Shown: in pieces, positions 39,001-63,986 of the stretch
Numbering within the stretch: position 1 is the first letter of the stretch
Layout: each line of letters begins with the position of its first letter
Source: Albula goreensis
Taxonomy: Eukaryota > Chordata > Actinopteri > Albuliformes > Albulidae
DNA length: 64,000 nucleotides
Assembly (NCBI GenBank): GCA_022829145.1
Contig: CM040758.1
Coordinates: 24,411,575-24,475,574, forward strand
Direction of reading: 5' to 3'
Notes under the pieces: generated by a model
What the model was told of the DNA's origin: nothing
Databases searched by the model: none
What the model saw: the letters and a program-made list of their open reading frames with translations, nothing else
Made by a program: the position numbers and the translations under genes

Positions 39001-42000
39001 GCATCCATAAAAAAGAAAAAAACTTCTTTATTTTTTGTTTTTTTTATGATACAGAGGAACTGCTGAGTCAGTGTTCATCCCAGAGCAAGGCCTCCCTGGA
39101 GGTGGACCAACTCAGAGCTCAGGTGTGCCACCTGCAGAAGCAGGTGAGAGAGCTGGAGCAACAGACCAGCGGGAAGACCATCGACCACGCCCAACAGGTC
39201 AAGCAGGTACGGTCGAGATCATTAGAACAGACCCAGGCTGGGACCCAGTCAGATGTACAGTCCAATCAAAACACACTTTGCATAATGCTGCTTACTATGA
39301 ACTAGAGTGTCATAGTAAAGTCTGTTTCCATTGACTTGTATATGCTCTTAAAAAGACTCAGTTTATTTAATCGGATCCTGGCCCCACCCTCCAAATTTCT
39401 TCTACATTCCAAATGCAAACACACACAGACCATGTCACAGTCCAAATTCCATAACAAGAATTATAAAAACATCATCTAGAACCACTTATTATGAACATGT
39501 TATTTTTAATGTAGTTAGTCGTTCCCTGCTGAACATTACTGCAGAATGCTAATTTCTGTGGATCAGGAGACAATGTGAAAAAGATGCAGTTGACCATCTG
39601 TTGGTTTATAGCAGGATCTTGACAAACTAGGTCCCTGAGACCCCCTGTGTGTATGCTGCTATTCTGTACCAACCATAATTACGACCCATAAACAGAGCCC
39701 CATAAACATCCTGGAACAGCATGTTAATTGTCGTTAATTAGACACTTTCAGCGTCTGCTGGGGGTTGATTTCCCCTTTTAATGCCACATTATGTCATGAC
39801 AGCTATGCATGAAATGAAGAATAAATATCACGTACTTATATCTTGGGGCATTGTCAGACCAGTTCTTAGACTGATGCTCTCAGTTCTTTAATGCGCTGTT
39901 TGCCCAATGATTCTTTTAGAAAAAGGTATTATTATGAAATTATTAAATTATAGACTGACAAGTGAAATTAAATTGCTTAAATTGTGAACACCTTGACACT
40001 GGTATTAAACCATGGGTGGAAAATTACTTCAGATGACAGTGACTGGGACCAGGGTTGACCACCCCTGGTTTAATCCCTGAGAAACTCCAAATCCCAGCAT
40101 GCAAAGCGTCTCTTTTCAGGTCTTGAGCCTGATGGTGTTATGTCTGTGGTTCCTGTAGCAGGTAGAGGCCCTGTCCACCCAGCGCCAGGAGCTCCTGAGG
40201 GCCACGCCGAGGAGCTGAGGCGTGTCCGGCGGCAGACCGAAGAGGAGCGGGGCCGTCTGAAGGAGCAGCTGAGGAAGAGGCTGGAGGAGATGATGAAGAA
40301 GCACGCCGGAGAGCTGAGGAGCGTGCGGGCCGCCACGGAAACAGAGAGGAAGAAAGCACAGAGGGTGAGAGAGACAGAGAGTGGGGCCCCTGCAACACCC
40401 CAGAGTCGTATCAGAGTTAATGACGTCTGCCGATTCCCAACAGCATATGGAGCTAAATATCCCAACCGCATCTGTCGATTGTTTGCTTTACATCAATGTC
40501 AGACGATTAATTTATTCAGGAGACCGATTGGGGGACTTAATTTGCATTTGGAAGTATATTACATACGCAGAGAGCTGTCCATTCCCTTGACCAGGTTGGT
40601 AGGTTTATGTAGTGGAGAGAGGGAGCTTTAAAGTGTTTAAACTGAGAGTCCTAAAGCAGAACATCGGTCCCGTACCTTCCTTTTAGAGTACTGACTGGTG
40701 CTCTCACAGTCTCGGTTATACACAGGGGTGGGCGCCTACTTTCCTCTGCAGCCGTTGTGCTTCACAGGTTTCCGTTTCCACAGTTACCCTGGTCCATTAG
40801 CTAATACAGCAAGGCTTCAGCAGTAGATTAGATCACAGCACATTTTACACAGAGACACAGAAGCGGGAATTAGCAGTCTGTAATGAGATTATTAATGAAT
40901 TTAGCTAAAATGCCAGATCACATAAATGAGAGGGAAAGTTAGATAATTACTGGTACAAGTTTGCATGAAACCTTGAGACAGATGCAGCCCCGCTCGCCCA
41001 GGCCAGGTCATATGGGACTAAATACCCCACTCTCATCTGCCGATTGGTAACATTAACATTGACATTGGAAACTTAATGTATTCAAGCATAGCAAAGGGGG
41101 ACTAAGGGGGATTTAACTGAGGTTTTTTTAATTGATAAACGAGATTAGCAAAGCAAACTACAGAAGACTGTTCGGGTTGGATTCTGTCAGCAGAACACAG
41201 GGGAATAGGTGGAACTTCTCAAAGGGTAGATTGCACACTGATATCAGGAGTTTTCAATGACGGAACAGCTTGCCAGGTCATGTAGTAGAGGAAGAGACCC
41301 TTGGAGAGTTCAAGTCCCGGTTTAATGCAGCGACGGCTAGCTCTCTGCTCTCAAAATTATGTATTCTTATGTTGCGATTTTAGGTGTTTTAGTTGCCCCA
41401 CTTCTCAGGGTCGTAACTTTGAGCGGGCCTTATTTCTCATTCTGATGTGGTACATATCTTAAGTAAGGTAGCTGGCTCAAGGTTACAGCAGCAGCAGTCT
41501 CAAGACAAGTGCCTGGAAAATATGTACTAATTTTTTGGCATGGGATACCTGACTGGCTGGCCAGAGGGTGGATTTGATTAGCTGGGGCTGTCTGACTAAT
41601 TAGCTTCTTCCAGCTGCAGTCCCCTATACACAAGGGCTGTGTCTCAAGTTGCATACTTGTGTACTAGTTAGTACACATATCAAGTATGGAAGTTAATCGT
41701 CACCTGATCAAGTGCTTCTCAAACTCAAGTATGCAAGTATGCAAGTACGCATAGAATTCACCGGAAGTTCTCTTCGCGTACTTGGGAGGACAGAAAAAAG
41801 AAGTATGCATCTGAGCACATTATTCTTTCCCAGTGGTCATTGTGCTCTCAGAACTGACAGTGAAGAAGAATTTTAAAGTTTTTAAATAAATTACATTTTT
41901 TTCTGCAACAACATTGCTAGTTAGCGGTCAACTACAATTTCAGTTGCTGCTACCATTACCGGATGAGTTTCCTGCAAAGGTCAGAAAGGATGTGTTAGTT

Positions 42001-45000
42001 CAAGTATTTCTCAAATTAACACATTTTTACCATACTGTGTACTTGCATACTAAATAGTACATACTATTTAGTGTACTTGGAAGGATGTACGAACAAGTAC
42101 ACAAGTATGCAAGTATGCAATTTGAGACACAGCCAAGATCGTAGTTTGTCAACAGATGCAGCTGACCGTTGGATAATTAGTAAGGAACAATCTCTGAAGT
42201 AAAGCATTATGACCTCACAATGGAGACATTGTTTGTCAGGGCTCATATGCTTGAGTGAGGGTAAAACAGTAGTGCAGACAAATTAAATAGAGTTTCGCTA
42301 CACTCAACTGTCAGTCATTGGCTGTTTTGAACCAATCAAAATTTTTTATTTTCTCTGATTCTATATGGCAGCTCTTCCCATTTTTGATTCACTGAAGCTT
42401 CACTCCCCCATCTCTACCAGCATCCGCTGAGACACGGTCCCAGTTTTCCCTCACCGTTTTGCTGAAAAGTGCCAGCCCCGTTAATGAGGGCCTTTGCAAG
42501 CAACTCAAACAGATACAAATCTTTGGATGCTGTCTGTTTTTTTTTATTTTTTTATTTTCTGTGACCCAGATTCCCCACCGTGAGATTTACATGTAAATAT
42601 AGGACTGTTTGAGACAGCTTTCATAAGCACCAGCTGTTTTTCTGACGTCCCTGAATATGCTTCTTTTTGTTCTGTTGCACACACAAAAATCCCTCACGGT
42701 ATCCCAGAGTTAATATAGCAGCTCTGCGCTGTATTCCCTCAAGGTATCCATGAAGAAACGCACTTCTGATGAAAATAGTGCAAATAAAACCCACCGCAGA
42801 TACGGCTTCGTCCTGCTTCAGACTTCAGCTCAGTGGATGAATTTTAATAGAGATTATCCTTTTTTTTAAACATTTTGTTAAAATTTAAATTGAAAATGTA
42901 ATGTTTTTTTTTAAACAGAGCTGTAAAACAAAGATGGAACTCTATGCGCTGGTTTTTGTCCAATTATGCTGCCGTACTTTTCTTAACAGCTGTGTGCACT
43001 ACTGCTGATGTAACAAAAGAGCAGAAATAGTAATGAAATCCCAAAATAGATCAGCCCTCATGTACCCCAGCTGTGGTGTAAGTGTAGCCCTCAGTCGCTC
43101 TGCAAAAGGGATACTGAACTCCAGTCCTTGAGACCTGCAGCGTCCTCTGATTCTCTCACTTTAATAACCAAAACCCAATTCACATCCCAAGAAACCAGGT
43201 GTATTGAGTTAACTGTAATCTGCTGATTTAATCGATCAATTAGGTTCTGAGTTGTAATAAAAAACAGCGCGCCCTCTGGGTCTCGGGTTGGGACACAGTG
43301 GCGGACCCCGTGTCTGTGCTGCAAGCAGCCCTTCGGGGGGCGCGCGCGCAGGCGCGGGGGCACCCTCGCAGACGAGATTGATGAGATCCGTCGTGCGTGT
43401 CGCCGCAGGATCTGCAGACGCAGGCTGACGAGCTGAAGCAGAGGATCGAGGAGGAGCGCATGGAGCTGGAGAGAGAGAAGGAGGAGCTGCAGAGGAGACT
43501 GCAGGAGTCTGTGTGCCAGGTCAGCTTCCTGAGAAATGCTCGCTCTGCGCTTACTGCCTGGGAAACGCTCGCTCTGTTCTTACTGCCTGCCTAGGACCTT
43601 GTGTGCACCCCACGCCAGCCTTCTGCAGACCATTTACCAAGCAGATCTGACTGGGGTAGTCTGTACCCTGTACCCATTCACAGACCATTTACCAAGCAGA
43701 TCTGACTGGGGTAGTCTGTACCCTGTACCCATTCACAGACCATTTACCAAGCAGATCTGACGGGGTAGTCTGTACCCTTGTACCCATTCACAGACCATTT
43801 ACCAAGCAGATCTGACGGGGATAGTCTGTACCCTGTACCCATTCACAGACCATTTACCAAGCAGATCTGACTGGGGTAGTCTGTACCCTGTACCCATTCA
43901 CAGACCATTAGCCAACCAGATGTGATTGGGGAAGTCTGTACCCTGTACCCATTCACAGACCATTAGCCAACCAGATCTGACTGGGATAGTCTGTACCCTA
44001 TAACCATAAACAGACCATTTGCCAACCAGATCTGACTGGGGTAGTCTGTACCCTGTACCCATTCACAGACCATTAGCCAACCAGATCTGACTGGGATAGT
44101 CTGTACCCTGTACCCATTCACAGACCATTAGCCAACCAGATCTGACTGGGATAGTCTGTACCCTGTACCCATAAACAGACCATTTTCCAATCAGATCTGA
44201 CTGGGGTAGTCTGTACCCTGTACCCATTCACAGACCATTTGCCAACCAGATGTGATTGGGATAGTCTGTACCCTGTACCCATTCACAGACCATTAGCCAA
44301 CCAGATCTGACTGGGATAGTCTGTACCCTATAACAATAAACAGACCATTTTCCAATCAGATCTGACTGGGGTAGTCTGTACCCTGTACACATTCACAGAC
44401 CATTTGCCAACCAGATGTGACTGAGACCTACCCCCCACCCCCAATCTTCTATGCACGCTGCACACCAACCGTTCACAGACATTTATCTACCAGTTTTGAC
44501 TACGGTGACTACCAGTTTTGGACTCCTTACCCAGATTCCATTCCACACTAATCATTTGCAGACTATTTACCATACAGTTTTGAGGTATGCACCCAACCCC
44601 GTCCATTTAAGGAACTTTTGGCTGGCAGTGTTAAGTTAGCGGCCCCCTCCCCACTTCACTTTGATGATCTGACAGTAGTCTAATCAGACATTAGCATCAG
44701 TAGCCTGAAGCCGTCCCTGTTCAGCAGTCCCACACACAGTTATTTATTTTCGAATCAAACGCATGCTTCTTCATTGTTTTCATCGCCTCAAGGTTAGCAC
44801 CAGAAGTACGGTGTCTGCATTTCTGAGCGATTTATTCATCACATTATTTATAAGGATACACGCAGTTCAGAAAGAGTTCAAATGCAGATGCTTATATATC
44901 CAAAAAAAAAAAAAAAAAAAAACAAGCTCAACATTGCAGGAACAAGTAGGATGTTAAGTGTATCAGTGAAATGTAGCTGTGCGAGTTTGGTGACGTTAAA

Positions 45001-48000
45001 AACATTGGAAGCAATGACCTATTCCTCAACAATGGATGGTACACTTTTACATTAAGACTGGAATTAACTTTCACCTCTGCAGTGAACTCTCAAGGCAGAG
45101 CCATACTCATACGTTATGTGCTGCAGGAACCATGAGTGTGATTATGAGGGTCTATGGCAGCCAATAGCATCGATTACCATTAACTCTGCCTCCCATAGGT
45201 TCAATAATGTTTGTTTCCCCCCAAAGGGACATTCAAGAAGCAAACGCTCTATCCACTCAGATTTGTATTCGCCGATTGGCAATATCTCGCTCTAACAGCA
45301 ATTACAGCAGCCATGTCCAGTGTTCTCATGTCTGATCCAAAGTAAAGCTTGGCTTTCCCCAGGCAGTTAAAAATACAAAATCTTTTTTCATTTACAGCCG
45401 GCCTTGATAAATTGTGTGTAGTTTGTGGGATGCTCATATTTTCCTGTCTCGCATTTGGGCTCCAAAAATACCGAAGCATTGAGACTTCACCACAGAATTC
45501 AACAGACCTCCACTTGGATGACATTGCATGTGTGCTAAATGTAGGTGTGTTTTGTAGATGACAGACACAAGTCCTGTATTACACCCATATTCCTGTGTTT
45601 TGTTGATAGAGATTAAATACATTTTCATCTTTTCATCTTTCACTTTGCATTTATACATTTTTAGCAGGCTGAATACAATGCCACAGTCATGAGATTTAAT
45701 GTGTCATAACTGGGCCTATTTTTTTATAATATTATTGCACATGCTTCTAAATGTGACATTTAAAAAAAAAATCCTAATTCCCCCAGTTGTTGGACTGTGT
45801 GCTACTGCATTATGTAATGAGATAATTAGCCCTGTGTTGAGGCACGCTCCTGACTTAATTGGGTGAAAGTGAGGATCATGTGACCCAGCAGGGCCAGGAG
45901 GCTTCCGGAACCCTGCAGCCCTGCAGCAGCCAGTGCGATAGGCTGAGGGTGGAGCTGGAGCAGGCGATATGCTCCGCGACCCAGACCGAGGTACGAAACC
46001 CCAACATCTGTTCCCCCGGCCCCCCCTCCAACACCCTGATTTTTTGCCAGTTGCTCTTTGGCACTGAGTGTTAGACTCTAAAATTGCCATTGACAGTGTA
46101 GTGTAATGGCTTTGGAGATACTTAGCCCCTGTAATTCAGAGACTTCACCTTCATCTCCCACATTGAGCTCATAAATTAGTCATTGAACCTGAATTGGTTT
46201 TGTAAAATATCCAGCTGCATAAACAGATAGGTGTAATGTATAACGATGAACGTCAGCTATGTGTGAATAAAAGCGTCGGCTAAATTCCTAAATGCAAACT
46301 CAGAGGCAAGGGACGTGGGTGTGTCATAAGCAAGCGCGTCGAGAGCGTCTGCGCTCTCTGACAGCCGGTAGCTGATAGCTGTCAGAGCCTGCAGCTGGTA
46401 GTCAGGGAGCGCTTCCTCACCGCCGTCGCCCTTGGCTTTCACTGAGGGGGTCTTAGGCCTGCTGTCAATCTAAAGCTGCTTTGTGACAATTCGTTTTGTA
46501 AACAGCGCACTAAAAGTTTAATTTAATTGTCTGCATTGAACAGTAAGGAAGAGAGTATTCAGCAATTAGAGAGGTCTGAGGTCTGGAAAATCGGTAACGG
46601 CTGATGATAAATAATGGAAAGGTCATATTTTAGGAAAGTCGTATTCCAGCCCCAGCACCCCACCCTACCCTGCTCCCCGCTCCACCCCCTCGCCCAGGGG
46701 AAGGGAAGCAGCTGTCTGATGGGGCAGCGGCGTAGCTCGGCCACACAGAGCTGGCACTCCCCATCTCACTGTTTCACTCTGCCGCAGGTGCTCTTGCACC
46801 ACAGCGCCCCCTCAGCCAGGAAGGGGAATTACACCTTACAAATCTCTATCCCTCCCTGCTCCGGCTAGCACCCACCTCTCTGTCCATTTCACTCTTTCTT
46901 TAACTCTCAAATATCCCTCTCTCTCACTCTCTACCTTTCCCTCTCTCTATCCAATTCAGAATAAGTATTTCAGTTTCTCAATATTGTTGTAAATCCAGTA
47001 GAAACCATGGTAATCAAATCAGGCTTTGGAAATAAATTGGGAATACACTGTATTACACTATATGAAAACTAAACCTGGAAACAAACTATATGCTCATGTA
47101 AGTATTTGTAGTTAGTTATCTCCAGAGTGGTTTGTTCCTGAAAAACAGGCCACAGTTGATGTTACTCATTTATTGTAAGCAGATTCAGCGGCATCTTTTC
47201 AGGTTTAGCATTCCATAGCTGAAAATATTTGCTGTAGATTTTCATATCATGGAGGGCGTAGGAGCCGTTCTGAATTTGATGAATTATTAAAGCCTTAATT
47301 AGAGTTCTACACAGCTATGCGCCGGCTCTCTTTGTTTGCCACCGAGCGGCATTAATCAAATTTTACTGTTTCTCCCAGGAAGACCTTGAGCAGCTGAAAG
47401 AGAAACATCAAGCCGAGATCTCAGCTCTGAAGAAAGAAAAACAGATCCTGGAAGACAGAATCGTAGAACAGGCCCAGAAATACCATGAAGAAAAAAAGAG
47501 GTAGGAGAGGAGTATTGGACGATCCGACAGCTGTTCGATTAATAAGGAACCGCCGAGGCAGGAGTGAAAGAGAATTTTAAATTTGCCATTACGTAACATG
47601 GCTACGATCTGGAAGCTGTTTTGAATAACGAGAGAAACAGGGATGGAGCATCGTGTAAGGATTCACTTTGTGGGATCCTCTGATTGCTTCTCATGAGGTC
47701 CCCCCATCCCCCCAACCCCACCCCAGTCAGCTTTTAAGAGTCACATTCAATGCTGAAACAGTAAGGGTTCTCTTACTTCAAGCACACTGGCTGAACAGAC
47801 AGTAAGCAAACACAGGGGCACATAAATAATGATGAAGGGCTCGTAGCTGTCATTAAACCTGCTTAGAGGAGCCACTGAAATGGAGGACCTTTTGATGTGA
47901 CACTCCCGTCTCTCTCTCTCTCTCTCTCTCTGTCTATCCAGGTCAGAGAGCGAGAGCGAGTTCCCGGCGGCACGAGCTTGCCGAGCAGCACCTCTCCGCC

Positions 48001-51000
48001 CTCGCCCGTCTCCGGAGGGACAAGGACTCCGAAATCAAGGAAATAAAGGACAGCTTTCAGAGGAAGGTAAAAGCCCGGCGGTCAGAAGCATCTCAGGGGT
48101 TGTGCTGAAAACAAAGGCTGGTGTCTGTGAATGGCACATGGAGTGAAAGCATGTGGAGCAGCAAGGCAGGGGATTCAAGTCTCAGCCACACCATTACTCC
48201 AGAAAGGTCCACATTTAGCAATTACCAATTAGCCTTACCGGGGGGGAAAATATTGGGTAAATCAGTTAAAATCACCAGCCTCAATCGCTCACTCGTGGCC
48301 TTTCCTGGCCGGCCCAGCATCTGCAGCTCGGTGCCCTGAACATATGTTGATTTCATGAACGTCTGAGAGCGTAGGTCATGTTTAAGAGAGGGTAAATCTG
48401 GATCGGCGAAAGCCAGTCGCCACGTGAGTCGGGGGACTCATGCGTGCAGCAGCTTCCTGTGATTCTGTGGGAGAGGGGCTGGTAATGTAGCTCAGTACAA
48501 CGGGAAAAAGAGGAAGAAAAAAGGAAGGCTGGTAAACGAAGCTGTTGAGCCCCTGTGGAGCACAGACTCTGTGGGAAGTACCCTCTCTTTCCTCTTCCCT
48601 CTCTCTCTCTCTGCAAATTGAAATTCTCTCTGTCTCCCTCCCTTTCCCTCTATTATTAAATCTCTCTGTCTGTCTCTGTCTCAGTCTGACAGGTGTTTAT
48701 GATGATTTATTTATTTATTTATTCATTTATTATTAGTATTGTTGTTATTTTTGGTTTGCGTTATTTTCAGTGTTTTTCTGTCGATGTGTTTGCTATTGCT
48801 TTAATTCGATGGAAGCATTTTCCACTTGCTGGGCTTTTGCTTTTTGCTTCCTCTAATTAAGGTTAGAAAGTTAGAAATTCAATTCTCTCTTTATCTTTCT
48901 CTCTCTCTCTCTTACTCGTGGTCTCTGTCTCTCTCCCTCTCTCTCATTCCCCCCCACCCTCTATCTTACTGTCTTGATTTTTCTGTTTCTCTCTCCTTCC
49001 CTCTCTCTCTCCCTCTCTCTCATCCCCCCACCCTCTATCTTACTGTCTTGATTTTTCTGTCTCTCTCTCCTTCCCTCTCTCTCTCCCTCTCTCTCATCCC
49101 CCCCACCCTCTATCTTACCGTCTTGATTTTTCTGTCTCTCTCTCCTTCCCTCTCTCTCTCCCTCTCTCTCATCCCCCCCCCCTCTATCTTACTGTCTTGA
49201 TTTTTCTGTCTCTCTCTCCTTCCCTCTCTCTCCCTCTCTCTCATTCCCCCCACTCTCTATCTTACTGTCTTGATTTTTCTGTCTCTCTCTCCTTCCCTCT
49301 CTCTCTCCCTCTCTCTCATCCCCCCCCACCCTCTATCTTACTGTCTTGATTTTTCTGTCTCTCTCTCCTTCCCTCTCTCTCCCTCTCTCTTATTCCCCCC
49401 ACCCTCTATCTTACTGTCTTGATTTTTCTATCTCTCTCTCCTTCCCCCTCTCTCTCTCTCTCTCTCCTTCCCCCCCCACCCGCGCCCGAGCCGGTGTACT
49501 CAGCTCTATGCAGTACACGTTTCTCCAGCTCTGCTGCGTCAGGGCTGCCGCCGAACCTCATGGGCTTCGTGAGCCGAGCCAAACAAAACTGCATCCCTCG
49601 CTCCAACATCAACCAACATTTCACAATGTGTTCCACACCCCGTATCCTGTTTTTTTTTTCATTATTTATTGCATGCATCATCAAATGACGGAAAGAAAGA
49701 GCACGTAGATTTGCAATGACCTCTTTTCCAATAACAGCAGAGATCAAGAAAATGTCACTGTTTTATTCCCGTTTTTCCCCACCTGAGCTGAACCGTACGA
49801 TCGTCCCCACTATCGACCTTCCCCCGCGGACTCTGGAGAAAGCAGCCTCACCTGTGATCCCTCCCATATGTGTGGTGATTAGCTATTTTTCTCACTGCGG
49901 ATGTAACGCTAATCACTTATCGCTCACTTGTACTGCTGGAGGAACAGTGTGGAAGAACACAGAGTCAACATGCACTCAGTTTACAAGCCTGCAGGCACTT
50001 TCCCAGCCAGGGGAGGGCACTAGAGAGCAATGGGGCTGATTTATTAAACAGGCTCACCCGCTATTTCACCCTCCAGAGACGGAGGTCATTTTTGCCTCGC
50101 TATTGTGGACCTGCAGCCATAGCTGACAATGCGCTTGGCATTATGGGATACAGGGGTGAACCACAAACATAACTGTTTACTCTCAGACTTACTGACATTT
50201 GTAAAACTACAGTAAAACACATGAAAATACAGATAAAAACTTTGCTTCGGATGTGTTAATTGTTTGTGGTGGAAGAGAAAGTGATAATGGAAGAAGCACA
50301 AGGATTTCGGCACAAAAACTCCCTTTCAAGCTTTTGGCTAGTCTGACAGCAAAAAATGTAGCTAATGATTAGCTAAAGATTCCACACACCTTGTTCCATG
50401 GTCAAAATTAACCATCGATTGAAATGAGACCAAAAAAAAAGTCCTCCAAGACTAGAGAGATGTACAGAATAACATTTTGTTTCTGTTTTTTTTTGTTGGA
50501 CAGAAGAAGGTAGAGGGGAGGAGAATTGACCCTGGCTCGGACATGAGAAGCACAGGGGAACCTCTTTCCGATTCGGACAGCGAATGCCTGGAGCGGGAAA
50601 TGGAGAACACGGTGAGGCTCAACCACAGCCTGCGGGCGCAGCTGCTGTCCCCTTCTCAGGGAACGGAGCAGCTGATTCATCGCCAGGACATTAAGGTAGA
50701 GTAAAATACAGCCTCGACGCGGCCCGCTAGCCGGCGCTCCCCAAACAAGTGCACTTAACTTAATTACGTCTCCGAGGGGACCTTCCGGAAAACGATTTTT
50801 TTTTCTTTTATGCTGGCATTGCTGTGTCATTTATCTTGTCTGAGCCTGACTTATAACTGAGCATACCTGTCAGTCATAATTTATCAGTGCACACTGCATA
50901 GCGTTTTGACCTATGACCACATTGACTGCGTTTCCGAGTTGAGCCGAGTTCTGCGGGGAGTTGAAGTTTGCTGGGCAACAAGTAAATAGTCAGTAATAGG

Positions 51001-53238: not shown

Positions 53239-53279
<41 letters not shown>

Positions 53280-56200
53280 ATGTGTATTGCAGACAGGCAG
53301 AAGGCAGAGCTCTCCCAGCAGCACGCTGAGTGGTGCAGGCAGATCACGCAGAGGCACATGCAGCAGATCGAGGACCTGCAGGCTGAGCTGCGCACACACA
53401 CCGAGCTCGTGGCCCTGCAGCAAGTACGTAGGTGAGGCGAGGTGACACTGATCCCGGATCAGAGCTCAGCAAGTGCGCAAGAGGCCACTGGCTTTCCCTT
53501 CGCTCATTGCTCCCTGATCTGAGATCAGTGTTTCTAAAGGGATGAGTGGTTTTGTAAGTGTAATGTTCCCCGGATTAGTTCCGCTTATGAGCAGGATTTA
53601 GAAAATTGACCCTGAACGGTTTTCCTTTCAGTTCATATTTATAATCAATTTTTAATAGTTATCTAACAGAGCGACAAACAAACTGTTGACATCTAACCCA
53701 TAGTTCATACAGAGAGATAAATAACTAGGCAGACAGACAGACATATAGGCAGATAAGTTAAAAAGAATGTAAAGTTGTTGTGTACAGTAATACTGTGAGC
53801 CTGGGCTAGTATCCAGTGCAGTCCTGGAAGGTAACCAGGATCTAGCAGTGAGGACATTGAGGCGCACCTTGATGACATCATAATGAGGACTGGGCAGGGT
53901 AACTCAGTCAGATCAGCCCAGCATGACCGTTGCAAACTGGCTGCGCATGTGTAGCTGTACTCTGGGAACTGGTCACAGGCACAGTTTGTTTTAAATCAGT
54001 GTCATTTTACTGAACTGCAGCCTCAGACTTAAAGGAGTTGAGCATAAAAATGCTGCTCATTCTGGAACCCTTCGCTGCAACACTTCCACTCACTCCCACA
54101 TACATTTTGACATCAGGTCTTATGAAGTCTTGTCTGTGGTCTGACTGAATCTGCACACAGACACTGATTCATTGTCAGAATCAAAGGCTGTTTCTTGATG
54201 TTAGAAAATGAACTAATAGCCTTTTTTAGGGTGAACTATCCCTTTTAATTCCGTGGCAGATAAAGCAAAACCGACCTCTCACAACCTCTTTTCTTATTTT
54301 AACGAGCTGTGAAACTCTTTTTCTCTCTGTACTTTTGTTTTTTAACAAGCTGTGAAACCAGTAGCTTATTAGCGGTAGCCTCTCCACTCTTCCCAGACCG
54401 CCTCCCATGGCTCAACCCCCCCTCTGCTGCCTGCCTCCCCCCACCCACAGGACTTTAAGCAGCAGAACCAGGCCCAGGCCTTTGAGAGGCAGCTGGAGGA
54501 GAGCCGCGCGGAGGTGGCGGGGCTGAGGAGGGAGAATGGCCAGCTCAAGGAGCAGCTGGCCTCCCTGCACTCCCAGGTGGACAGCAAGACCCAGGAGCCG
54601 TACAGGTTGCAAGACCCAGAGCAGCATCCAAGGTGGGTGGCAGCATGGTGTAACGGTTAGGGAAAAGGACTTGCGCTTTGGAGGTTGCAGGTTCAAATCC
54701 CCATCAGGGTAATGTTGTTGGATAGTAGCATGCCAGAGCCATTTGTCTGCGGTGCCTTTGCAGGTGCTTGCTCTAATTGAGTACTGCACCACCTGGTTTC
54801 AGTCCACCTGGCCAATTTGCACAATCATGTGGTGCAGTGTGCTTTGGGAACCACCCTCAGGTTGACCTGCCTTGAAATGTAGCTGAATAGCTGGGGGGAA
54901 CTGGACTTGTTACTCAGTGGGTGCAAGCTTAGGGGGGAGCACTGCTGCTGTACTAATTCTTGTTAAGCAAGATACTTAACAAGAATTGCTTCTGTAAACA
55001 ATGTTTAAATGACATGTATGTGCTTTCAAAACATAAGTTAGTCACTCTGAATATTAAGCTTCGAATGTGAAATTCCACAGATTTATAGGGAGTATCTCAA
55101 TGAGTACTTCCTGATTAACTGGAGGAAATGAGGAAGTATATCACTCCTAGTTTCATTTGTAGGTTCTGGTTACTAACCAGTAGTGAGATATGCATACAAC
55201 AATATGGAAGCTGAAGACCTCAGCCTCTCCATCCGTTTTTGGTGTCACAGAGCCAACTCTCCATTGGCTGCTGTAGATCTATGCGTGTGAGCTCAGGGAC
55301 CATCGGCAGTAAGCCCTCACTGTCTAATTTTATCCCTCTGAGAGCCAACCAGCAACTGTAGCGTGTGTAATTAATGACTGACTGAAGAGATTATTTGCTT
55401 AAAAATTTAGCAGGCTTACTACCATTAGGTCCATTTTTGGTGGGGTCTGAGGAGAATCGTGTAGCAGTTTGAGATATTTTGTTGAAATTTGATGAGTATA
55501 AAATTCTGGGCTTGCGGGGGTGGAAGTCTGATGTGACGTCCTTTTGGTAGAGGTGGAAAACCCCAACTTCAGCAAGTAAAGTGCTACGTGGCATTGGTTC
55601 CACCCATGTGCTAAAATGCCTAATTTCACTGATTAGCTCCGCTATCTGGCTGAAGAGCTCTGCTAGTTACAATCCGCTGGATTAGTGTAAGAGTGGAGCA
55701 AATTCATGGGAGTACTGACGCAGGGATGTTCTCCTCTGCTCTTTGGCCTTATCATCAGTTTCCTGTAACCCCCAGAGTTACAAGAGATGCTCTTTTTAGG
55801 TAAGCCCCACCTCACCATTCCACATTTACTCCCCTCGTCTGGTTGGGCAGGTGATGCCACTTGAGTTGTATGGCAGATTTGGTTGATTTAGGTACAGAAA
55901 GATTTCATATTACAGCCACCCACCAAAATTCCCGATTGATCAGAAGCAGTCACACTTGGCTGATTTGTTTGCAAAGTGAATCAATTTAAGGTGAAGTGAA
56001 TCAGAGCAAGAAAAAAATAGGCAAGCCAGACAAGCGAAATTACCGGCACAGAATCTGTTGTGGAACGGCTTTGCTGCCAGCTAGCAGAGTGAAACAAAGC
56101 GAGTAATTGACTTTGTGTTTATCACAGAGTTTATCTACCGCTGCTTGCCCTCTGAAATTAAACTGAGGGTATTGGACTAATGTGATGGTTGCGTTTGGGC

Positions 56201-59200
56201 ATTTCAAATTGGAGAGGAAAAAATGTCATCGGGAATTCATAATTTTGACAACAGTAGTCAAAAGCTGCAAGATCAAGCAACAAAGATTCTACAAGTATTA
56301 ATAATTCATATATTTTAGTCCTGATTATCATAGCTAACATGCATTTAGCGCTTTACTGATGCTTTATATAGTCGCTGGTATACAGTATATGTATGTATAT
56401 GTATGGAAGTATTGTTCGTGTGGTCTGACATTTTTGCAAAAGTAGGACGATACTAGGACATTAGTTAGGTGAAATAACTTATTTTCCCCAACACTGTAAG
56501 TGGCCCTGGATAACACCATCTGCTAAGGGACTGTACTGTGATGTCCTAGTATTGTTCATGGATGCCTGTAGACGCTTTACGGCGATCGCGCATGCAGAGC
56601 CGTTTCAGTGCGGCACACGGAACATTCTGGAGGCGGGGGGACGGTTCACCCCTCCTTTGATCTACCTGCAGCTCCCCTGTGCCGTCTCTCAGGTGTTGGG
56701 ACGAAGGGGCGAAGAACAGACAGCACCTGGAGGTGGAGAATCTCAAGAGGGAGCACAGGAAGGAGATCCAGACCATTGTGTCAGACTTCAGCAGCGCCCA
56801 GACACGGCTACAAGCAAGGATCGTCTCCTTGGAAACAGAGTGCGTATCGCAGAGTTCTTGAGCGCATCGTCCATGCTGAAAAGGGCAAGGCTGTACAGTC
56901 AGGGGAGGTGAAACGAAACGCGCAGGAGGCATAACAACGAATGTTAATGCGAGAAGGAAACAGACGATTCGCCCGCGCTGTCTGAAATGAGACCACAGAA
57001 ATCCCAATTAAACAAAAAAAAAAAAAAAAATCACACAGGCAAAAATGACTTCAGAATCCTGAGCATGGCAAAATATTATTCTGGAGGTTTACATTGCCTT
57101 CCTGTAGAACAGCTGCAGTATCTCATTACGCATTTCAGTCAGCCAGTGGGACACAAGGAACTTTTTAAAACAATTATTTTTGTAATACTTTTTATATTTA
57201 AAAAGCCAAAAAAAAAACAATATTGAGGTACCATCCAATTATCTGGGGGATAATTGCTTTGAATTCACCAAGTATTGCATTTTGAGACATGCACTATTTC
57301 TGTACGAAATAATCAAAAGACTGAAGACAGTACTTTTAAAGGCGCTAATACATGATTCAGACTTGTTTCAGACTTGGTCATATGCTCTGTTCCAAAAGCT
57401 ACCGTTCTACCTTTTTAGTAGTGTTACTATGAGAAATATTTTTAAAAAGCAGGAAAAACGTGTGATGCAATTCATGAATCTGGTCTTGAATTCAATCATC
57501 AATCGCTTGCAGTGCTTGAGTGCTAAGTGCAAATTCAGATGCTCAGTTTGATTACTAATGTACTAAACAGATTTTTGTTTTTAAATAATTAAAGACTGAG
57601 AGAAAAAGAAGAAAAATGCAAGAGGCGAGAATCCAGAATAGAGGACCTGCAGGTCATTGGGATGCTCCAGGATAAGCTGAGCGAGAGGGACCAGGTCATC
57701 AAACGACTTGTGGTAAGTGGTTTCTGAAGTACAAAATACCTTTATCCTCAAGTCTTTATCAATAATGTATTGCATTTATGCGGGTCCTTCGTGTTAAGTG
57801 CTCTCAAGGTGGGGGGGTGGTGGGTGAAGGGCGTTTGAGATTCGCCTCCAACCTGTCACCCTCCACTAGGTGACACACAGTGGCCATTTTGTGGCTTAGT
57901 GTGTATTGCATGTCAACTGACGTGGAGGAAGAAAAAAGGTTTAACTTATGATTTCCTTACCACTTTTGTATGATGCAAGTAACAAATCAGATTACTGTTT
58001 TCTTGTGGGTTGAAAAAGCATTGCAGTGAGTCAGGAGCTCAGAGTCAGTTCTGCAGTGAATCTGCAGTGTCTCATGTAGCACAGTGTTCCCATCATATCA
58101 CCACAACATTGCTACTCAGCCCAGAGGGAGCACTGCTGTCCACTGGTCAAACAACACCACTTTCAGCAATAACCTGATTTTGCCAAATATTAGCCATTTC
58201 CATGTGCTCGTGTATTTGCACAGTACTCTAGCACATGGAAAACACACATGCATTTTTACAATGCACTTTTTGAGAGCAAAGATCAAAAGAGTTCACAACA
58301 AAGTCAAATGTGAAGGCCCAAACCAAATATCAAATGAAACAAGATAGCTAATAATAAGGATGCAGTTAAAACTGACAGCACTGTTGAAAAATGTTTTAAG
58401 CCTTGATTTAAAATTTAATTTAAAAATTGACACTGTAGCTGGTTCAGGGATGTGATTTTCAGTGATTAATCAAACCGTACATTTCTCATGGGGCCGTGCT
58501 AGCATTCGGCTTTATTTTTGAACACTCTCTGCTGCTATCAGCTGTCACCGGCTGGAAAAATCTCTTGATGCGTGTGCTTATGACACATCCAAGATCTCTT
58601 CCTCTGGGTACGATGCTCAGGGTATGAAAATCAGCATTTCCTCATGAATTCAAGAAGAGAGTACAGAAATCTTATCGCTCAGCCCCACCTAGCTAGCAGC
58701 CATTAGGCAGGAGAGTTTTGGAGAGGAGGGGTTGGGGGAGTGGGGGTATTGCCCCTGGCAAGGACATGTGGCCGTAACCCACTTTTAGAAACAAGTTACT
58801 GAGCCATTCCCACAGACAGTTCCAGAATAGAAGCGGAATGGAAATCTACCGAGTTCCGTGGCCGTAAGAAAGATGGAGAGTCTCGCAAAACTACCACCTT
58901 CCCTCATACCTTACTGGCTGCTCTCCGCGGCTAGAGGGCCTGTGTGCTCAGCAGCTTCCTGCTCCAGCCAGGCAGCTGAAGCACCTGTTTCTATGTTATA
59001 TTTCCATTTAAAAAATACATTGTTTTATTTTAAATAATGATCATGCTGTTTGAACCAATGAACCGTCCCTCCCTTAGGCGGATGAAAGTTGCTGTAAAGA
59101 GAGCTGAAAATCCTGACTGTAGCCAATGGCCTGTATTCAAAAAAACCATCACAGAATAGTATTGCTGATCTGGAGTCAGTTTTCCTCCACCCATAATATA

Positions 59201-62200
59201 ACATTAGCCATTATTTGGACACAAGGTAGAGCTGATCCTAGATCAGGGTCTGGGTCAAATTAGGAGTGCTGGTCTAGGATCAGATTTCCTAACTGTCTGT
59301 ATCCTAGCCTTATCCATCATGAGAAAAAGCAGCTGATCTGAGATCAGGGCTCATACTCTGAGCCTGTTTACTGGCCTCAAGTGTAGAATGTGATTTATCT
59401 CATAACAGGAGGAGAGGCACCACCTCCATCAGCACCCCCTGGTGGCCAGCGACAGCTCTACACTGAAGACGTATGAAAACAGACCACAACCCGGGAGCCT
59501 CACTCCAACGTTGAGGGTGAGTGCAGCTTCACTGCGCGGCCGGATCCAGGCAACACGCATACAGGAAAATCAGCTTCGATGTCAGGGGACAGGACTGAAA
59601 TACAGGGGGTCCTCGGGTTACGACGGTCTCGAGTTACGTCGTTTCGTGGTTACGACGTACTCCCATATATTGTTTAAAAAACCTAGTTTCGACCTAAGCA
59701 GTTTGGTTCGTAAATACGACCACAGAAATAAAGATAAGAAATTGTTCTCTCTCTTTTTTTATGAGTGTTTCGTTTAATTACTGTATTTTATATGTCCTTC
59801 ATGTGTTGTCTGTACAGTGTGAGTGACTTAAGGTGTTAACTTAGGTATAATTTAGGTATAAATTCCGACTTGCGTCGAAAATCGACTTACGACAAGTCGT
59901 AAGAACGGAACTCGTTCGTAAGTCGAGGACCCCCTGTATAAAGAATTGAGCCAGAGAAAGCTAAAGATGAGAATAGCTGTAAACTTCAAATAAGCTGATA
60001 GAGAGAGTAAGAGAGAGGGAGAGAGAGATCCACAACATCTGAGTTGAAAGTGAGGTTTTGTGGATCCTTTGAACTCAGACACTCAATGATTACATTCTTG
60101 TTGGAATATAGACGGTTAGAAAAATGCATCTACTCTCTTCAATTTGACAGGCAGAGTTTCCAGAGTAAAGATGTTTTATCTTGAAAGAGAGCGAGAGAAA
60201 GGTACTGTTTTTCATGTCACACAGTCAACAAAGACAGCCGGAAGAGAATACATTAAATTCACCATATGAATAACTCAGATAGAATTATATGAAAATAAAG
60301 TGGGAGAAAGCCGAAGCATCATTTGTTTTGATTGTGTGGGCAGGGAAAAAGAGGAGGGTGCTGCAAATTAAATTTAAATGCCTGACACTGTAATGAGACT
60401 AAGCAAACAGTGGACAACTGGTCACCCTGTCTGAATACATGCAACAACATTTACTTTGGCATTTGTGTGTGTTACAGCACATCACACCACGTAAAGTCAA
60501 GGACAAAACATTTGTTCCTAAAAACCAACCTACAATCATATTACTTTGCACCAGGCCAAAACCATTTTGTCTAAAAAGTGGATGCAAATCCAGGTCCTTG
60601 ATAGAAATCGATCTATGCCTGCCGCAGCGGTGTAGGTAAGCCATTTGGAAGCTCAGTAATCATCGTTATTTCTCTTGGCTGCCTCTGCCAACTAATCAAG
60701 TCACCATTGTAAATCTTAAAAGCATCCGTTCTGACACATACAGCAGTGCCAAAGTAAAAACATTTTTAAAAAACAGACAGGCATTTGGTGATTTGAACCC
60801 AGCGATTGTGTTTGGCTGTGGAGGGTTTATTCTTTTGATTGTTTCCAACAAGTACTGTATATGGAACAGCTCATTTTAAATACACACATTGTGTGTGGAG
60901 TTGATGAAACCTCACTTTCTGGTCCCTACATAATATCCCCATCCCCCCTGATTCTAATGATAAATCGGTAAGATTTGTTTTTGAATCAGATGAAGTATTT
61001 TTTATCAGACATGAAGATATCCAAAGCTTGTTGTTTTTCATGCCTTTCAGTTCTTTCTACATGTTATTCAGGATTAATCTGTTATTTTTATTCATTATTC
61101 ATGTTGTAAATGTATCAGAAAAAGAAGATGGAGGACACGCCCCCTCGCGTGATCAGCGTGCCAAACCTGAGCTCCTACGAGAGGAGCTTCCTGGGGCCCG
61201 AGTCCGCCGCGGCAGGGGCCCGGTCTCCGCAGGCCGTCAAGTCCCCCAGCTTCGAGCACGGACCGGGCCGGACCACCCCCAGGACCGCCACCCCCACCAC
61301 CCCGGTCCCGCCCCCCATCATGGAGTCCCCCGGCAGGGCGTGAGGTACAGCCGGGGGTCCCCCTCTGACGACTACCACCAGGGAGTGACCAGCTACGGCC
61401 AGCCCCCGAGGTCAGTCCACTGCTGGACAAGGGGTCATACACCAGGGTCAGGGACCAGCAAAAAGCACAACCCAGCACTATTTACATGGAATAAATGTGT
61501 TAGCTGCATACCAGAACAACGCTAAACAACATAACTTCACTTCAGTCTGACACACCCATTTCCTGAAAAATGTTCATAACATGACACAATTAGGGGCATA
61601 CTAAAATGTACTATTAATTTGATGTAATAAAAGATTTCAAGTGCGGAAACTGGGCTAGAAAGACAGCTTGAAAGAAGGTGAGACAAAGTAGGTGGAAGGA
61701 TGGGAGGAGATTGAGTTAGGTAAAGGAAGATGGAGACGATGAAGGGCACTGAAGTAAGAACACGGGGAGTATATGGAAACCTTTGCTGATATTTATAACA
61801 ATGTATATGTAAAATGGAGGTGACAAGTAATGTCTGTATCTCGCATCAGGGTTTCAGCTGCTACTAAAATAAACTCACTCCTGACTTTCTGCTACTATAC
61901 ATCTCAAGATGGTTTCCATAGTGACAAGTTATGGGTTGGTTGAGTGGATCCTTCTCATCTTTAAGCTGAAGATTTGACATCTTAAATCTCAGTCTCCAGT
62001 GGCCATCAGAAGACATCCCAAACTCGACAGTTCACACTGAACAGTTTCCAAAACTTTCTACATCTCGACAGTTGAGAGCATTTTGATCTGAACTCACCTT
62101 TATCATACACAGTAAGGGAAGCAGTCTGACCCACCTTCCCCCAGTTTAAATTTAATAAGGGCAGAGTAGGAGTTTCGTGTGGAAAGTGACTAATTTAAGA

Positions 62201-62313
62201 CAGTCCCACCCTTCTCTTTCAGAACCCCGTCCGAACAGCGGCCCCTCGAACCCGGGTCTGAAGGTCAGGACCCCCAGCGGCAGGAGTGGTTCACAAAATA
62301 CTTCTCCTTCTGA
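21343..62313 (+). CDS. FAM184B: FAM184B: coiled-coil protein, 18 exons, three single-base frame breaks
   Basis: Function unknown; the FAM184 family is long coiled-coil proteins. Exons: 21343-21483, 33210-34004, 37610-37745, 39055-39206, 40159-40364, 43409-43519, 45892-45990, 47379-47500, 47942 or 47947-48066, 50504-50695, 52815-52968, 53293-53423, 54451-54632, 56693-56839, 57595-57712, 59409-59516, 61119-61410, 62223-62313. Family landmarks: HTKMCKKIAQLTK at the end of exon 1, VIYSLNTKNEEQEA opening exon 2, KRLEEMMKKHAGE, EHRKEIQTIVSDFSSAQ, IEDLQVIG, VPNLSSYERSFLG and the terminal QEWFTKYFSF. Most of the rest is Glu/Arg/Leu-rich heptad-like helix. Phases agree throughout except inside exons 5, 9 and 17. 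One extra C/G in each restores one frame of about 1099 aa (human about 1060). Exon 9 could instead be explained by an A-run miscount at the end of exon 8. The start is the first ATG before the conserved N-terminus. Whether the breaks are real is unresolved. Confidence 0.94.
22878..22990 (+). repeat. Diverged dispersed block, copy A
   Basis: Shares ordered motifs with 25437-25550 and 28108-28225: a TTTAAT-like start, AAACTCA, GGTCAAA, a TTGAGTAAT-like segment followed by GCTGCC, then TTTCACA. No terminal repeats were found. Confidence 0.5.
25437..25550 (+). repeat. Diverged dispersed block, copy B
   Basis: Contains TTTAATGACCCAAACTCATG, then TGGTCAAAAT, TTGAGTAATCGCTGCCTG and GTCAGTTTCACA, in the same order as copies A and C. 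Confidence 0.5.
25915..26285 (+). repeat. 37-bp minisatellite, about 10 copies
   Basis: The unit contains CTCCAGGACTGGAGTTAAAC followed by CTGCAGACACTGCAGCC. The last copy decays into 'gtgtttaacacccctg', resembling the end of a common fish interspersed repeat, so the array probably grew from one end of such an element. Confidence 0.9.
28108..28225 (+). repeat. Diverged dispersed block, copy C
   Basis: Contains TTTTAATGGACCAAACTCAG, AGGTCAAAAT, TTGAGAATTTGCCGCTG and TTTTCACACAAGCAGAATG, matching the order in copies A and B. Confidence 0.5.
28694..28760 (+). repeat. Teleost-type dispersed repeat fragment
   Basis: Contains GGCATTTGTTAGACGCTCTT and then CCAGAGCGACT, the sequence common in teleost SINE and DNA-element tails; related to 6187-6250. 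Confidence 0.65.
29440..29720 (+). repeat. TG-rich tandem duplication, ~147 bp period
   Basis: The segment beginning TTTGTGCACCTGAGTGTTTG near 29458 recurs 147 bp later as TTTGTGCACCTGACTGTTTG. Both are embedded in TG/TATG-rich sequence, and long chance ORFs arise here on both strands. Confidence 0.7.
32698..33170 (+). repeat. 76-bp minisatellite, about 6 copies, abutting FAM184B exon 2
   Basis: The CTCAGACAGTATACTC motif repeats every 76 bp (for example 32829, 32905, 32981, 33057), separated by a conserved 'attaatacatatgggctttg' segment. The array stops about 40 bp before the exon 2 acceptor. Short ORFs inside it are repeat artefacts. Confidence 0.92.
33210..34004 (+). CDS. FAM184B: FAM184B exon 2 (265 codons)
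   Basis: The largest exon, phase 0 at both ends. It encodes VIYSLNTKNEEQEA, then a nearly continuous Glu/Arg/Leu-rich predicted coiled coil, ending SKRHCIKAQERTQ. Very GC-rich. A 254-codon antisense ORF across it is a shadow of the codon bias. Confidence 0.95.
34955..35131 (-). mobile_element. SINE-like fragment in reverse orientation
   Basis: Runs from 'ttacatttatcata' through 'ctttgctcaagggtataacg' to GGGAGCCAAACCTACAAG, the reversed B-box region, and 'gcccagctccccatc'. This order is typical of teleost tRNA-derived repeats read backwards. Confidence 0.55.
36058..36272 (+). repeat. TG / GGTG compound simple repeat
   Basis: A pure TG run (about 36058-36091), then GGGTGGGT-type and TGTG stretches repeating imperfectly. 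It produces spurious Val/Cys/Gly ORFs on + and His/Thr/Pro ORFs on minus. Confidence 0.9.
40159..40364 (+). CDS. FAM184B: FAM184B exon 5, with an internal frame break
   Basis: The exon enters at phase 0 with QVEALSTQRQELLRA, then hits an in-frame TGA at 40216-40218. The frame shifted by one base is clearly coding (HAEELRRVRRQTEEERGR, then KRLEEMMKKHAGE) and leaves at phase 0. The exon is 206 nt; 207 would keep both ends in phase, so one base is missing near 40199-40203 (GGGCC). Confidence 0.85.
41635..42134. mobile_element. 500-bp MITE with terminal inverted repeats
   Basis: The left end GGCTGTGTCTCAAGTTGCAT is mirrored at the right end, whose reverse complement begins GGCTGTGTCTCAAATTGCAT. 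The similarity continues into TACTTG/GTGTACT repeats. AAG flanks both ends (41632-41634 and 42135-42137), consistent with a 3-bp target duplication. There is no transposase ORF. Superfamily not assigned. Confidence 0.75.
43626..44430 (+). repeat. 55-bp minisatellite, about 14-15 copies
   Basis: The unit begins CAGACCATTTACCAAGCAGA, continues TCTGACTGGGGTAGTCTGTA and ends CCCTGTACCCATTCA. The copy starts at 43626, 43681 and 43736 give the 55-bp period. It begins about 105 bp after FAM184B exon 6. Confidence 0.95.
46095..46300 (+). mobile_element. Degenerate tRNA-SINE-like element
   Basis: The order matches the 6590-6770 element: a GTGTAATGGCTT head, 'cctgaattggttttgtaaa', 'tatccagctgcataaac' and a tail ATAAAAGCGTCGGCTAAA. 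The B box is decayed. Confidence 0.55.
47942..48066 (+). CDS. FAM184B: FAM184B exon 9, frame not continuous with exon 8
   Basis: The open frame gives RRHELAEQHLSALARL, then RDKDSEIKEIKDSFQRK, ending phase 0. Exon 8 ends with two bases of a codon, so the join fails as written. Either the acceptor is 47947 and one C is missing in the CCC at 47963-47965, or the acceptor is 47942 and the seven-A run at the end of exon 8 is one base too long. Confidence 0.7.
48888..49480 (+). repeat. CT-rich minisatellite, ~73-76 bp period
   Basis: Blocks of CTCTCTCC and CCTTCCCTC alternate with a marker 'cttactgtcttgatttttct' that recurs about every 75 bp, roughly seven times. It lies between FAM184B exons 9 and 10. 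Confidence 0.9.
50504..50695 (+). CDS. FAM184B: FAM184B exon 10 (64 codons, Ser/Asp-rich)
   Basis: Phase 0 at both ends. Begins KKVEGRRIDPG, contains the acidic serine stretch EPLSDSDSECLERE, and ends in HRQDIK. The acceptor has a good T-rich tract. I could not align it to a segment of human FAM184B from memory, so it may be skippable or lineage-specific. Confidence 0.75.
51645..51765 (+). repeat. (CTAT)n tetranucleotide microsatellite
   Basis: Nearly perfect ATCT/CTAT repeat of about 110 bp, flanked by CTGT variants. Confidence 0.95.
52493..52812 (+). repeat. 36-bp minisatellite running into FAM184B exon 11 acceptor
   Basis: About nine copies of a 36-bp unit built from GTGTCTCTGGGTGTGTCCCT and GACCACGCCCCTGG. 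The final partial copy, GTGTCCCTG, continues into TGCAG, the splice acceptor of exon 11 at 52815. Because 36 is a multiple of 3, long ORFs (164-197 codons) appear on both strands; they are artefacts. Confidence 0.95.
53117..53290 (+). repeat. TG-rich tract directly upstream of FAM184B exon 12
   Basis: TG repeats with TCTG/CATG interruptions, ending in TGTGCATGTGTATTGCAG just before exon 12. It takes the place of a normal polypyrimidine tract. Confidence 0.92.
53440..53530 (+). repeat. Fragment of a dispersed 'GATCTGAGATCAG' repeat
   Basis: Contains GATCCCGGATCAGAGCTCAG and CTGATCTGAGATCAG, motifs shared with 59150-59380 and familiar from the tails of teleost interspersed repeats. Confidence 0.4.
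54645..54790 (+). mobile_element. tRNA-derived SINE head
   Basis: The A-box-like TGGTGTAACGGTTAGGG (about 54649-54665) is followed by a B box GGTTCAAATCC, an excellent match to the pol III consensus. There is no clean tRNA acceptor stem, so it is not an independent tRNA gene. It starts within about 12 bp of the exon 13 donor. Confidence 0.7.
54870..55010 (+). mobile_element. SINE body/tail fragment
   Basis: 'gcactgctgctgtac' followed by an AAGCAAGATACTTAAC segment and 'gaattgcttctgtaaa', the same order as in the bodies of the other SINEs here. It may belong with the head at 54645. Confidence 0.5.
56470..56542 (+). repeat. Teleost SINE tail fragment
   Basis: 'gtaagtggccctggataaca' then CATCTGCTAAGGGACTGTA and a TGTGATG end, a mutated form of the teleost tail 'ctggataagagcgtctgcta'. 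Confidence 0.6.
59150..59380 (+). repeat. Dispersed repeat with several 'GATC...AG' blocks
   Basis: Contains GATCCTAGATCAGGGTCTGG, GTCTAGGATCAGATTT and GCTGATCTGAGATCAGG, resembling the tail regions of fish interspersed repeats; related to 53440-53530. Located just before FAM184B exon 16. Confidence 0.5.
59603..59936. mobile_element. 334-bp TA-flanked MITE (pogo/Tigger-like ends)
   Basis: The left end CAGGGGGTCCTCGGGTTACG and the reverse complement of the right end, CAGGGGGTCCTCGACTTACG, match at 18 of 20 positions. The element is flanked by TA on both sides (59601-59602 and 59937-59938), as expected for Tc1/mariner/pogo insertions. Inside are many TTACGAC/GTCGTAA repeats and intact CpG. There is no transposase ORF, so it is non-autonomous. 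It lies 86 bp after exon 16. Confidence 0.85.
61119..61410 (+). CDS. FAM184B: FAM184B exon 17, with an internal frame break
   Basis: Encodes KKKMEDTPPRVISVPNLSSY and a Pro/Thr-rich linker, then reaches TGA at 61341-61343. The frame shifted at the five-C run 61327-61331 continues as RYSRGSPSDDYHQGVTSYG and joins exon 18 at the right phase. The exon is 292 nt; 293 fits both neighbours. If the TGA is real, the C-terminal QEWFTKYFSF would be lost. Confidence 0.88.
62223..62313 (+). CDS. FAM184B: FAM184B exon 18 (terminal)
   Basis: A CTCTTTCAG acceptor, then TPSEQRPLEPGSEGQDPQRQ, followed by the conserved end EWFTKYFSF and TGA at 62311-62313. The match to the human C-terminus fixes the reading frame and shows the break in exon 17 is internal. 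Confidence 0.93.
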
Positions 62314-62903: not shown

Positions 62904-63986
62904 TCACGCCTTCTGAAACAGACAGCTGCATTCTAGAACGTCGGTGGCGGATTTGTAGCTCAAAACCTCGCTGTGGAACTGAGCGATGCTTTTCTTCAGT
63001 TCCTTCATGGGCTTGGTCTGTGCTTTGTTTTTGTAGCTCATGCTGAGCAGTTTGTCTGACAGGTAATGGAGCCACAGTACATTGGTGTGAGGGTTGAATT
63101 CACTCCAGCTATTGCTGTAGAGACGGGGGGGAGACAAAAATGAAACAAACATCTCTTAATCTGGCTGTTTGTGAATTTCCACGAAAGCCACAAACAACAT
63201 CACTGCAACAGCAGAGAAAATGTGGCACAGCAAGAGGGGAAAGAAAGGGTTCTCACTTGTTTTCTTCCCGCATTTTGCGATAAATGTCAAACTGATAGTC
63301 CCCCTTTCCCATGAAGAGTTCCTCGTCGGCGGAAATGTCACAGGAAACGGTCAGCCCATCTGGAGGGGTCAAAGGTCACAGAGTTAGAGCATGTCATTTT
63401 GTACTGACCTTTTTAAATCAGACACACTATGGGGCTTTTATATCAACCTAAAATCAGCAAGGCGAGTAAAATGGCATCGCTGCAATTAATCAATTAAGCA
63501 CAGAAGAGGAGCAAACCCTGTGGCACTCTTGGGCCCAGGTTGGCCATCCCTGAGATACAAGGTTCCTACACACACTCCCCATTTCAAAATCCTACGCCTT
63601 CCCAGATCACTTCTCTCAAACATGCACCAGTCTGCCGCTGAGCACAGCTTCCATCTGTACTTAGCCCTGTAGAGACTCCAGGAGCGTCACACGCTTCAGA
63701 GCACATTAACTTGATCAAACAAACGAATGAAATCCGGCCTTCTCAAAACTTGTAATGACTCATTTTTGTACAAGCTGCATAACCAGGTATGAGTTTGAAA
63801 TTCTGAGTTCTTAGCGGGGAAAGAGGAAAAGGGGTGAGACTTGCCTATCTCCAGTCTGGACAGGGAGTAATCGATGATGTTGACATGGATCCCTCTGGTC
63901 TCTATGCTGTGTGGGGTGCCGTTCAGTACGTAAGTCCCCTCCTTCTCTTTAGTGGTCTTAACCAGGATATTTCCCAGTGCAAGTCC
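62904..63986 (-). CDS. HASPIN: HASPIN (GSG2) histone H3 Thr3 kinase, C-terminal exons; 5' part outside window
   Basis: Haspin phosphorylates histone H3 at Thr3 at mitotic centromeres, creating the Survivin docking site of the chromosomal passenger complex. Three exons are visible on the minus strand: 63845-63986, 63257-63359 and 62904-63114 (TGA at 62904-62906). They encode the catalytic loop DLHW(G)N, then ILVKTTKEKEGTYVLNG, the divergent DFG-equivalent IIDYSLSRLE (human has DYT), a GDYQFDIYRKMREEN segment, TNVLWLHYLSDKLL and the terminal SATDVLECSCLF. All align in order with human haspin. The first exon is one base short: TGGGAA is seen where TGG-GGA is needed (63973-63975), breaking the frame inside the catalytic loop. 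The first intron uses a GC donor. The kinase N-lobe and the long N-terminal region lie beyond 64000. Human HASPIN has a single exon, so the introns are notable. Confidence 0.93.

Follow-up and report, generated by a model that had tools for sequence, protein, structure and literature searches.

Frame breaks in FAM184B and HASPIN of Albula goreensis are probably small consensus indels in a poor patch of the assembly

INTRODUCTION

Unitary pseudogenes are marked by frame breaks in a gene that has no other copy. The locus described here resembles them in that its frame breaks lie in genes for which no other copy was found, but it differs in that, apart from the breaks, the modelled exons have kept their splice sites and show no nonsense codon, and in that adjacent, unrelated genes are broken too.

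False indels in an assembly can mimic such gene damage, and PCDH17 of the zebra finch is an example in the part of Kim et al. (2022, PMC9516821) drawn on here. Those cases and the present one share apparent gene damage from indels, but the errors described there occurred in older Sanger/Illumina assemblies and were biased to GC-rich 5′ regions, whereas the breaks reported here are not limited to GC-rich exons. In the part of Rhie et al. (2021, PMC8081667) used here, unpolished CLR long-read contigs are given as Q30-35, with short indels as the commonest error and frameshifts as the result, and a locus that was left unpolished carries TLK1 frameshifts. The likeness is that single-base indels break conserved genes within an otherwise continuous assembly; the difference is that the errors there are those of long-read contigs, whereas the present breaks were read from the consensus. 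Automated annotation that took the assembly at face value would list HASPIN, FAM184B and LCORL as damaged genes of Albula goreensis.

RESULTS

Genes of the window and unbroken controls

The window, by which we mean the whole 64,000-nucleotide stretch of DNA that was analysed, is C18:24411575-24475574 of the Albula goreensis genome (931.9 Mb, 208 contigs). From left to right, the genes are an LCORL-like gene (L003, left of the window), NCAPG (minus strand), FAM184B (plus strand), HASPIN (minus strand) and a MED28-like gene (L041, to the right). The LCORL-like exon was identified by gene order and by a match to PF15090 (E 3.3e-27), a family that we take to be the link to LCORL/LCOR. The gene to the right of HASPIN was named from its sequence and is presumably MED28. 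Rfam and tRNA scans of the window detected nothing.

2760..18145, minus strand: NCAPG, control gene with no frame break in the modelled part
21343..62312, plus strand: FAM184B, 17 exons modelled, from E1 (21343-21483) to E17 (62223-62312)
45874-45990, plus strand: possible small extra FAM184B exon with a weak acceptor
59409-59516, plus strand: FAM184B exon 15, a modelled exon

FAM184B exon E2 scored 63.7 bits against Pfam PF15665 (FAM184; E 2.5e-17), above the curated cut-off of 32.7, which places it in the family. With E2 as the query, no second FAM184B copy was found, and two FAM184A paralogues (on C7 and C9) were recovered at 37-41% identity. All scored FAM184B junctions have GT and AG, with poor scores at E10-E11 and E13-E14; the weight tables for splice-site scores were taken from general knowledge. 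The modelled exons contain no in-frame nonsense codon besides those that the shifts create. The reading frame is nevertheless not continuous from exon to exon, being broken at exon 5, at exon 9 (E8 of our model) and, when the donor at 61410 is used, at exon 17 (E16 of our model); the exon numbers are those of the original prediction.

Coding sequence without a break served as a control. NCAPG was predicted to carry no break, and this was borne out where the gene was modelled: 17 exons chain into 903 amino acids with no stop. The product matches PDB 6igx_B (condensin subunit 3) over residues 7-499 and 578-902 (E 1.5e-289), a comparison that leaves out residues 500-577 and the exons between position 5448 and the last exon. 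The FAM184A exons on C7 (3237 bp) and C9 (2949 bp), with a G+C content of 57-61%, also chain without a stop. Best-scoring sites were used at 13 of 16 C7 junctions, the other three requiring a lower-scoring pair for phase, and at 14 of 14 C9 junctions, where the chain lacks two exons and includes one spurious stretch. The MED28-like coding pieces beside HASPIN are likewise open.

Frame breaks in FAM184B exons 5, 9 and 17

The original prediction described four breaks, in FAM184B exons 5, 9 and 17 and in HASPIN, each repaired by one extra C or G. Exon 5, HASPIN and, with donor 61410, exon 17 behave in that way, but exon 9 does not.

40162-40364, plus strand: FAM184B exon 5, 203 nt between the best splice sites
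40195..40209, plus strand: FAM184B exon 5 frame break, one base short (or two in excess)

The matching FAM184A exon on C7 both starts and ends in phase 0 (the gene chain did not recover its C9 counterpart), and thus FAM184B exon 5 is either one base short or has two extra bases. When E4 and E5 were joined, the frame was restored by 207 of 354 single insertions and by 0 of 353 single deletions, and the change point in codon usage located the break at 40195-40209. Splice-site scoring found no good alternative acceptor for the exon. We conclude that the exon 5 break is present as predicted.

47379-47500, plus strand: FAM184B E7, 122 nt, ends in phase 2
47942-48066, plus strand: FAM184B E8 (exon 9), 125 nt
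47942..47974, plus strand: FAM184B exon 9 frame break, located by codon usage; one base in excess, or two or five missing

Exon 9 is also broken, but the predicted repair, one C at 47963-47967, leaves stops in place. The frame was restored by 0 of 248 single insertions and by 108 of 247 single deletions, and the deletions that restored it spanned 47464-47500 in E7 and 47942-48013 in E8. The intron between E7 and E8 is in phase 2 here and in both FAM184A paralogues, where the two exons join directly. Before the conserved stretch there are 27 nt in the FAM184A paralogues and 22 in E8, and therefore exon 9 has either gained one base or lost two or five. Splicing to an acceptor at 47949 would preserve the frame; its score is -4.1 compared to 5.9 for the acceptor at 47942.

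A 34-base exon at 47727-47760 would let the single-C repair work and scored 2.8, compared to a 90th percentile of 1.65 for 120 stretches of intron taken at random. We rejected this candidate because the two exons are adjacent in both FAM184A paralogues, with a phase 2 intron between them, and also because the segment at 45874-45990 better explains the extra exon in the original prediction.

61119-61410, plus strand: FAM184B exon 17 (E16)
61261..61340, plus strand: FAM184B exon 17 frame break, located by codon usage; only if donor 61410 is used
61337..61345, plus strand: alternative weak donor GGC/GTGAGG (here and below, a slash within a motif marks the splice junction), last exon base 61339; joins exon 17 to exon 18 in frame with the sequence unchanged

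With the donor at 61410, exon 17 lacks one base, as the frame was restored by 225 of 293 single insertions and by 0 of 292 single deletions. The predicted break therefore stands for that donor, but it could be localized only to 61261-61340, an interval full of C/G runs, and no repair at all is needed with the donor at 61339, whose use yields an intact protein, conserved C-terminus included, with no base changed. The break may thus be harmless if donor 61339 is used. The score of that donor is -1.1 compared to 3.6 for 61410. Moreover, both FAM184A paralogues have phase 2 at this intron and an AG/GT donor at an R codon, like the donor at 61410, and donor 61410 is favored for that reason.

The break in the HASPIN catalytic loop

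63845..63986, minus strand: HASPIN catalytic-loop exon, from the PDB 2vuw alignment, the phase of the upstream exon and the join
63257-63359 and 62904-63114, minus strand: two downstream HASPIN exons, within 62904..63359

The part of HASPIN inside the window matches Haspin in PDB 2vuw (E 2.1e-06). Against PF12330 the last exon scored 41.9 bits, above the cut-off of 25, and the broken exon alone scored 16.7, below it. The upstream exon, which lies outside the window in L002, ends GAA CAC AG/gtgagg and hence in phase 2, so that the reading across the junction is FEHR/DLHW. In that phase, DLHW is followed by EISWLR and a stop, and LALGNILV is found in another frame, whereas PDB 2vuw has LHWGN. 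The catalytic loop is therefore not readable in one frame. The break sits between W and G of DLHWGN, where GGG is present at 63973-63975 and the motif needs one more G. We conclude that the predicted HASPIN break is exact and that the missing base belongs to this G run.

A 645-amino-acid frame in L002 is open and was taken by its position as the N-terminal HASPIN exon; it had no Pfam match. One Haspin locus was found in the genome, by a family search that recognized just two of its exons and so could miss a diverged second copy.

A broken neighbor and the local density of breaks

The LCORL-like coding stretch of 4.6 kb (L003:4389-8988), just left of the window, is spread over three overlapping frames. 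It contains two breaks, both of the -1 kind, one of which is firm. The first is confined only to 162 bases, in which an intron could hide; the second lies within 41 bases, where the only C/G run of three is at the edge of the interval. With the LCORL-like exon broken, three neighboring genes are affected, and over about 70 kb the breaks amount to two in the LCORL-like gene (one firm), three in FAM184B and one in HASPIN.

Single-exon protocadherins, together with in-genome paralogues, offer a cheap way of telling a poor patch from gene loss, although its value is limited here by the many broken genes in one of the two clusters. From 200 candidates, 150 matches were scored, and a gene was called intact when its frame was at least 760 amino acids, a cut-off of our choosing. 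Among the matches listed, frames were intact in 50 of 53 genes of the C6 cluster, 54 of 91 of the C2 cluster and 5 of 6 others. The three short C6 genes comprise one with one frame shift, one with two and one with an in-frame stop. In the C2 cluster (C2:628126-1120670), 37 of the 91 listed genes fell below 760 amino acids, compared to 3 of 53 in C6. Six of these 37 were aligned; one gene (L028) has five shifts, and the indels are mixed, of 1 and 2 bases and of C, G and T. L028 looks like a real pseudogene, which would mean that genuine gene decay is found in this genome. The C2 cluster was kept out of the main comparison because several mixed indels occur in at least one of its broken genes.

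When the 5 to 6 local breaks in 13.0 kb were compared to the C6 cluster, where 3 genes were broken in about 130 kb (2.45 kb assumed per gene), the Poisson P value was 8e-7 to 2e-3, a range that reflects the break count and the use of either the mean or the upper limit of the control rate. With C2 as the yardstick and all of its short frames counted as errors, 2.8 breaks were expected locally, and the excess was not significant (P 0.15 for five breaks and 0.06 for six). Pooling C6 and C2 gave a moderate excess (P 0.03 for five and 0.009 for six). These P values are optimistic and overstate the excess, since FAM184B and HASPIN were selected post hoc for their breaks. Those in the LCORL-like exon came to light later, and for 4.6 kb at the C6 rate the P value is 0.10 for at least one break and 0.005 for at least two. 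Five intact protocadherins had 41-44% G+C, lower than FAM184B, a mismatch that the GC-richer FAM184A control answers in part.

We conclude that the four breaks described above, three in FAM184B (exons 5, 9 and 17) and one in HASPIN, are probably small consensus indels in a poor patch of the assembly. The stretch would be poorer than most of what was sampled, most events would be losses of single bases, with exon 9 either gaining a base or losing two or five, and the errors would not be specific to C/G runs. From the breaks, the phases, the controls and the LCORL-like break, each read directly from the assembly, we infer that the DNA of the sequenced animal is most likely intact at the break sites. 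Against a poor patch, NCAPG is unbroken inside the same stretch, the MED28-like pieces are open and the C/G runs of tandem arrays are not shortened (see below). The original prediction had preferred errors to two decaying genes, and that preference holds up better: the catalytic loop is broken in the only Haspin locus found, and the LCORL-like gene is broken too. If the C2 breaks are also errors, the assembly is poor elsewhere as well, which still speaks for errors rather than decay; should they be real, gene decay is frequent in that cluster. A poor assembly elsewhere does not make decay here likelier, and the odds are thus unchanged.

The alternative that survives best, although we consider it unlikely, is that FAM184B is truly decaying in the species and that the damage in HASPIN and LCORL is erroneous or arose separately. 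Such decay would fit the presence of three breaks, of which one differs in size, within some 3.3 kb of coding sequence next to a clean NCAPG, as well as the failure of the E2 query to find a second FAM184B in a genome with two FAM184A paralogues. The junctions and the open codons of the modelled exons argue the other way, as do the broken genes on both sides and the fact that the exon 17 break can be spliced around.

C/G runs and the proposed homopolymer under-calling

43626..44423, plus strand: 55-base tandem array (control), 42 C/G runs of at least three in the consensus, none shortened
52493..52809, plus strand: 36-base tandem array (control), 36 C/G runs of at least three, none shortened

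The original prediction had named a cause, namely, homopolymer under-calling at C/G runs in GC-rich exons. Four tandem arrays of the window together contain 99 C/G runs of at least three, none of which had lost a base. Indel columns in the arrays were few: a C in a substituted stretch, one T missing, one T extra and a GT pair at an array edge. In the 36-base array the aligner placed a gap in one GGG, yet the run reads GGG, and the GT pair is what is missing. A fifth array (30 runs) was excluded because its C runs differ between copies and are mostly longer than the consensus. As separate observations, C-run length differs between copies of a 74-base tandem array at 48928-49475, and the 36-base array reaches up to the FAM184B E10 acceptor at 52815.

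Homopolymers of up to A33, T20 and C16 are present in the window. FAM184B E2 (795 bp) is unbroken despite 30 C/G runs and NCAPG despite 63, and the stop-free FAM184A chains contain 81 (C7) and 86 (C9). In FAM184B exons, 39.5% of the 15-base intervals and 94.4% of the 80-base intervals include a C/G run of at least three, and runs are therefore so frequent that the link between break and run is weak, except at HASPIN. The HASPIN exon has only 50% G+C, which does not support a cause tied to GC-rich exons. If exons 5 and 17 are counted as run losses, 3 of 116 runs were hit in FAM184B and the joined HASPIN exons, whereas none of 367 was hit in the controls (Fisher P 0.014); the excess thus belongs to these two genes and not to C/G runs in general.

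Under-calling at C/G runs is thus an improbable cause. It would account for a HASPIN break pinned to a G run, for the C/G runs within the exon 5 and exon 17 intervals and for the Fisher result. Not all events are losses at homopolymers, however, and the predicted common direction of the errors fails at exon 9, where a change of -1, +2 or +5 is needed. Moreover, the array runs, the intact E2 and the long homopolymers were all preserved, and no clear C/G run marks the firm break in the LCORL-like exon.

Unlikely alternatives: HASPIN loss and tolerated breaks

It is very unlikely that the animal truly has a catalytic-loop frameshift in its only HASPIN, beside a decaying FAM184B and a broken LCORL; if it did, it would be a vertebrate living without a working Haspin kinase. 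Nor was there a sign of decayed duplicates, as searches of the genome with two Haspin exons and with FAM184B E2 found no intact copy elsewhere. Among the paper titles listed for FAM184B pseudogenes or for haspin in teleosts, none was on loss in fish.

Least probable of all is that the breaks are real and tolerated, FAM184B remaining coding through donor 61339 in exon 17 and acceptor 47949 in exon 9 while the exon 5 and HASPIN breaks are errors or rare alleles, because, although both sites preserve the frame, both score poorly, the paralogues' AG/GT donor at the R codon agrees with 61410 and exon 5 is without a good alternative site.

HASPIN sits between FAM184B and the MED28-like gene, and to our knowledge the arrangement FAM184B-HASPIN-MED28 is absent in mammals. 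The HASPIN intron that follows 63845 (within 63838-63850) begins with a GC donor, GATAG/GCAAGT, instead of GT.
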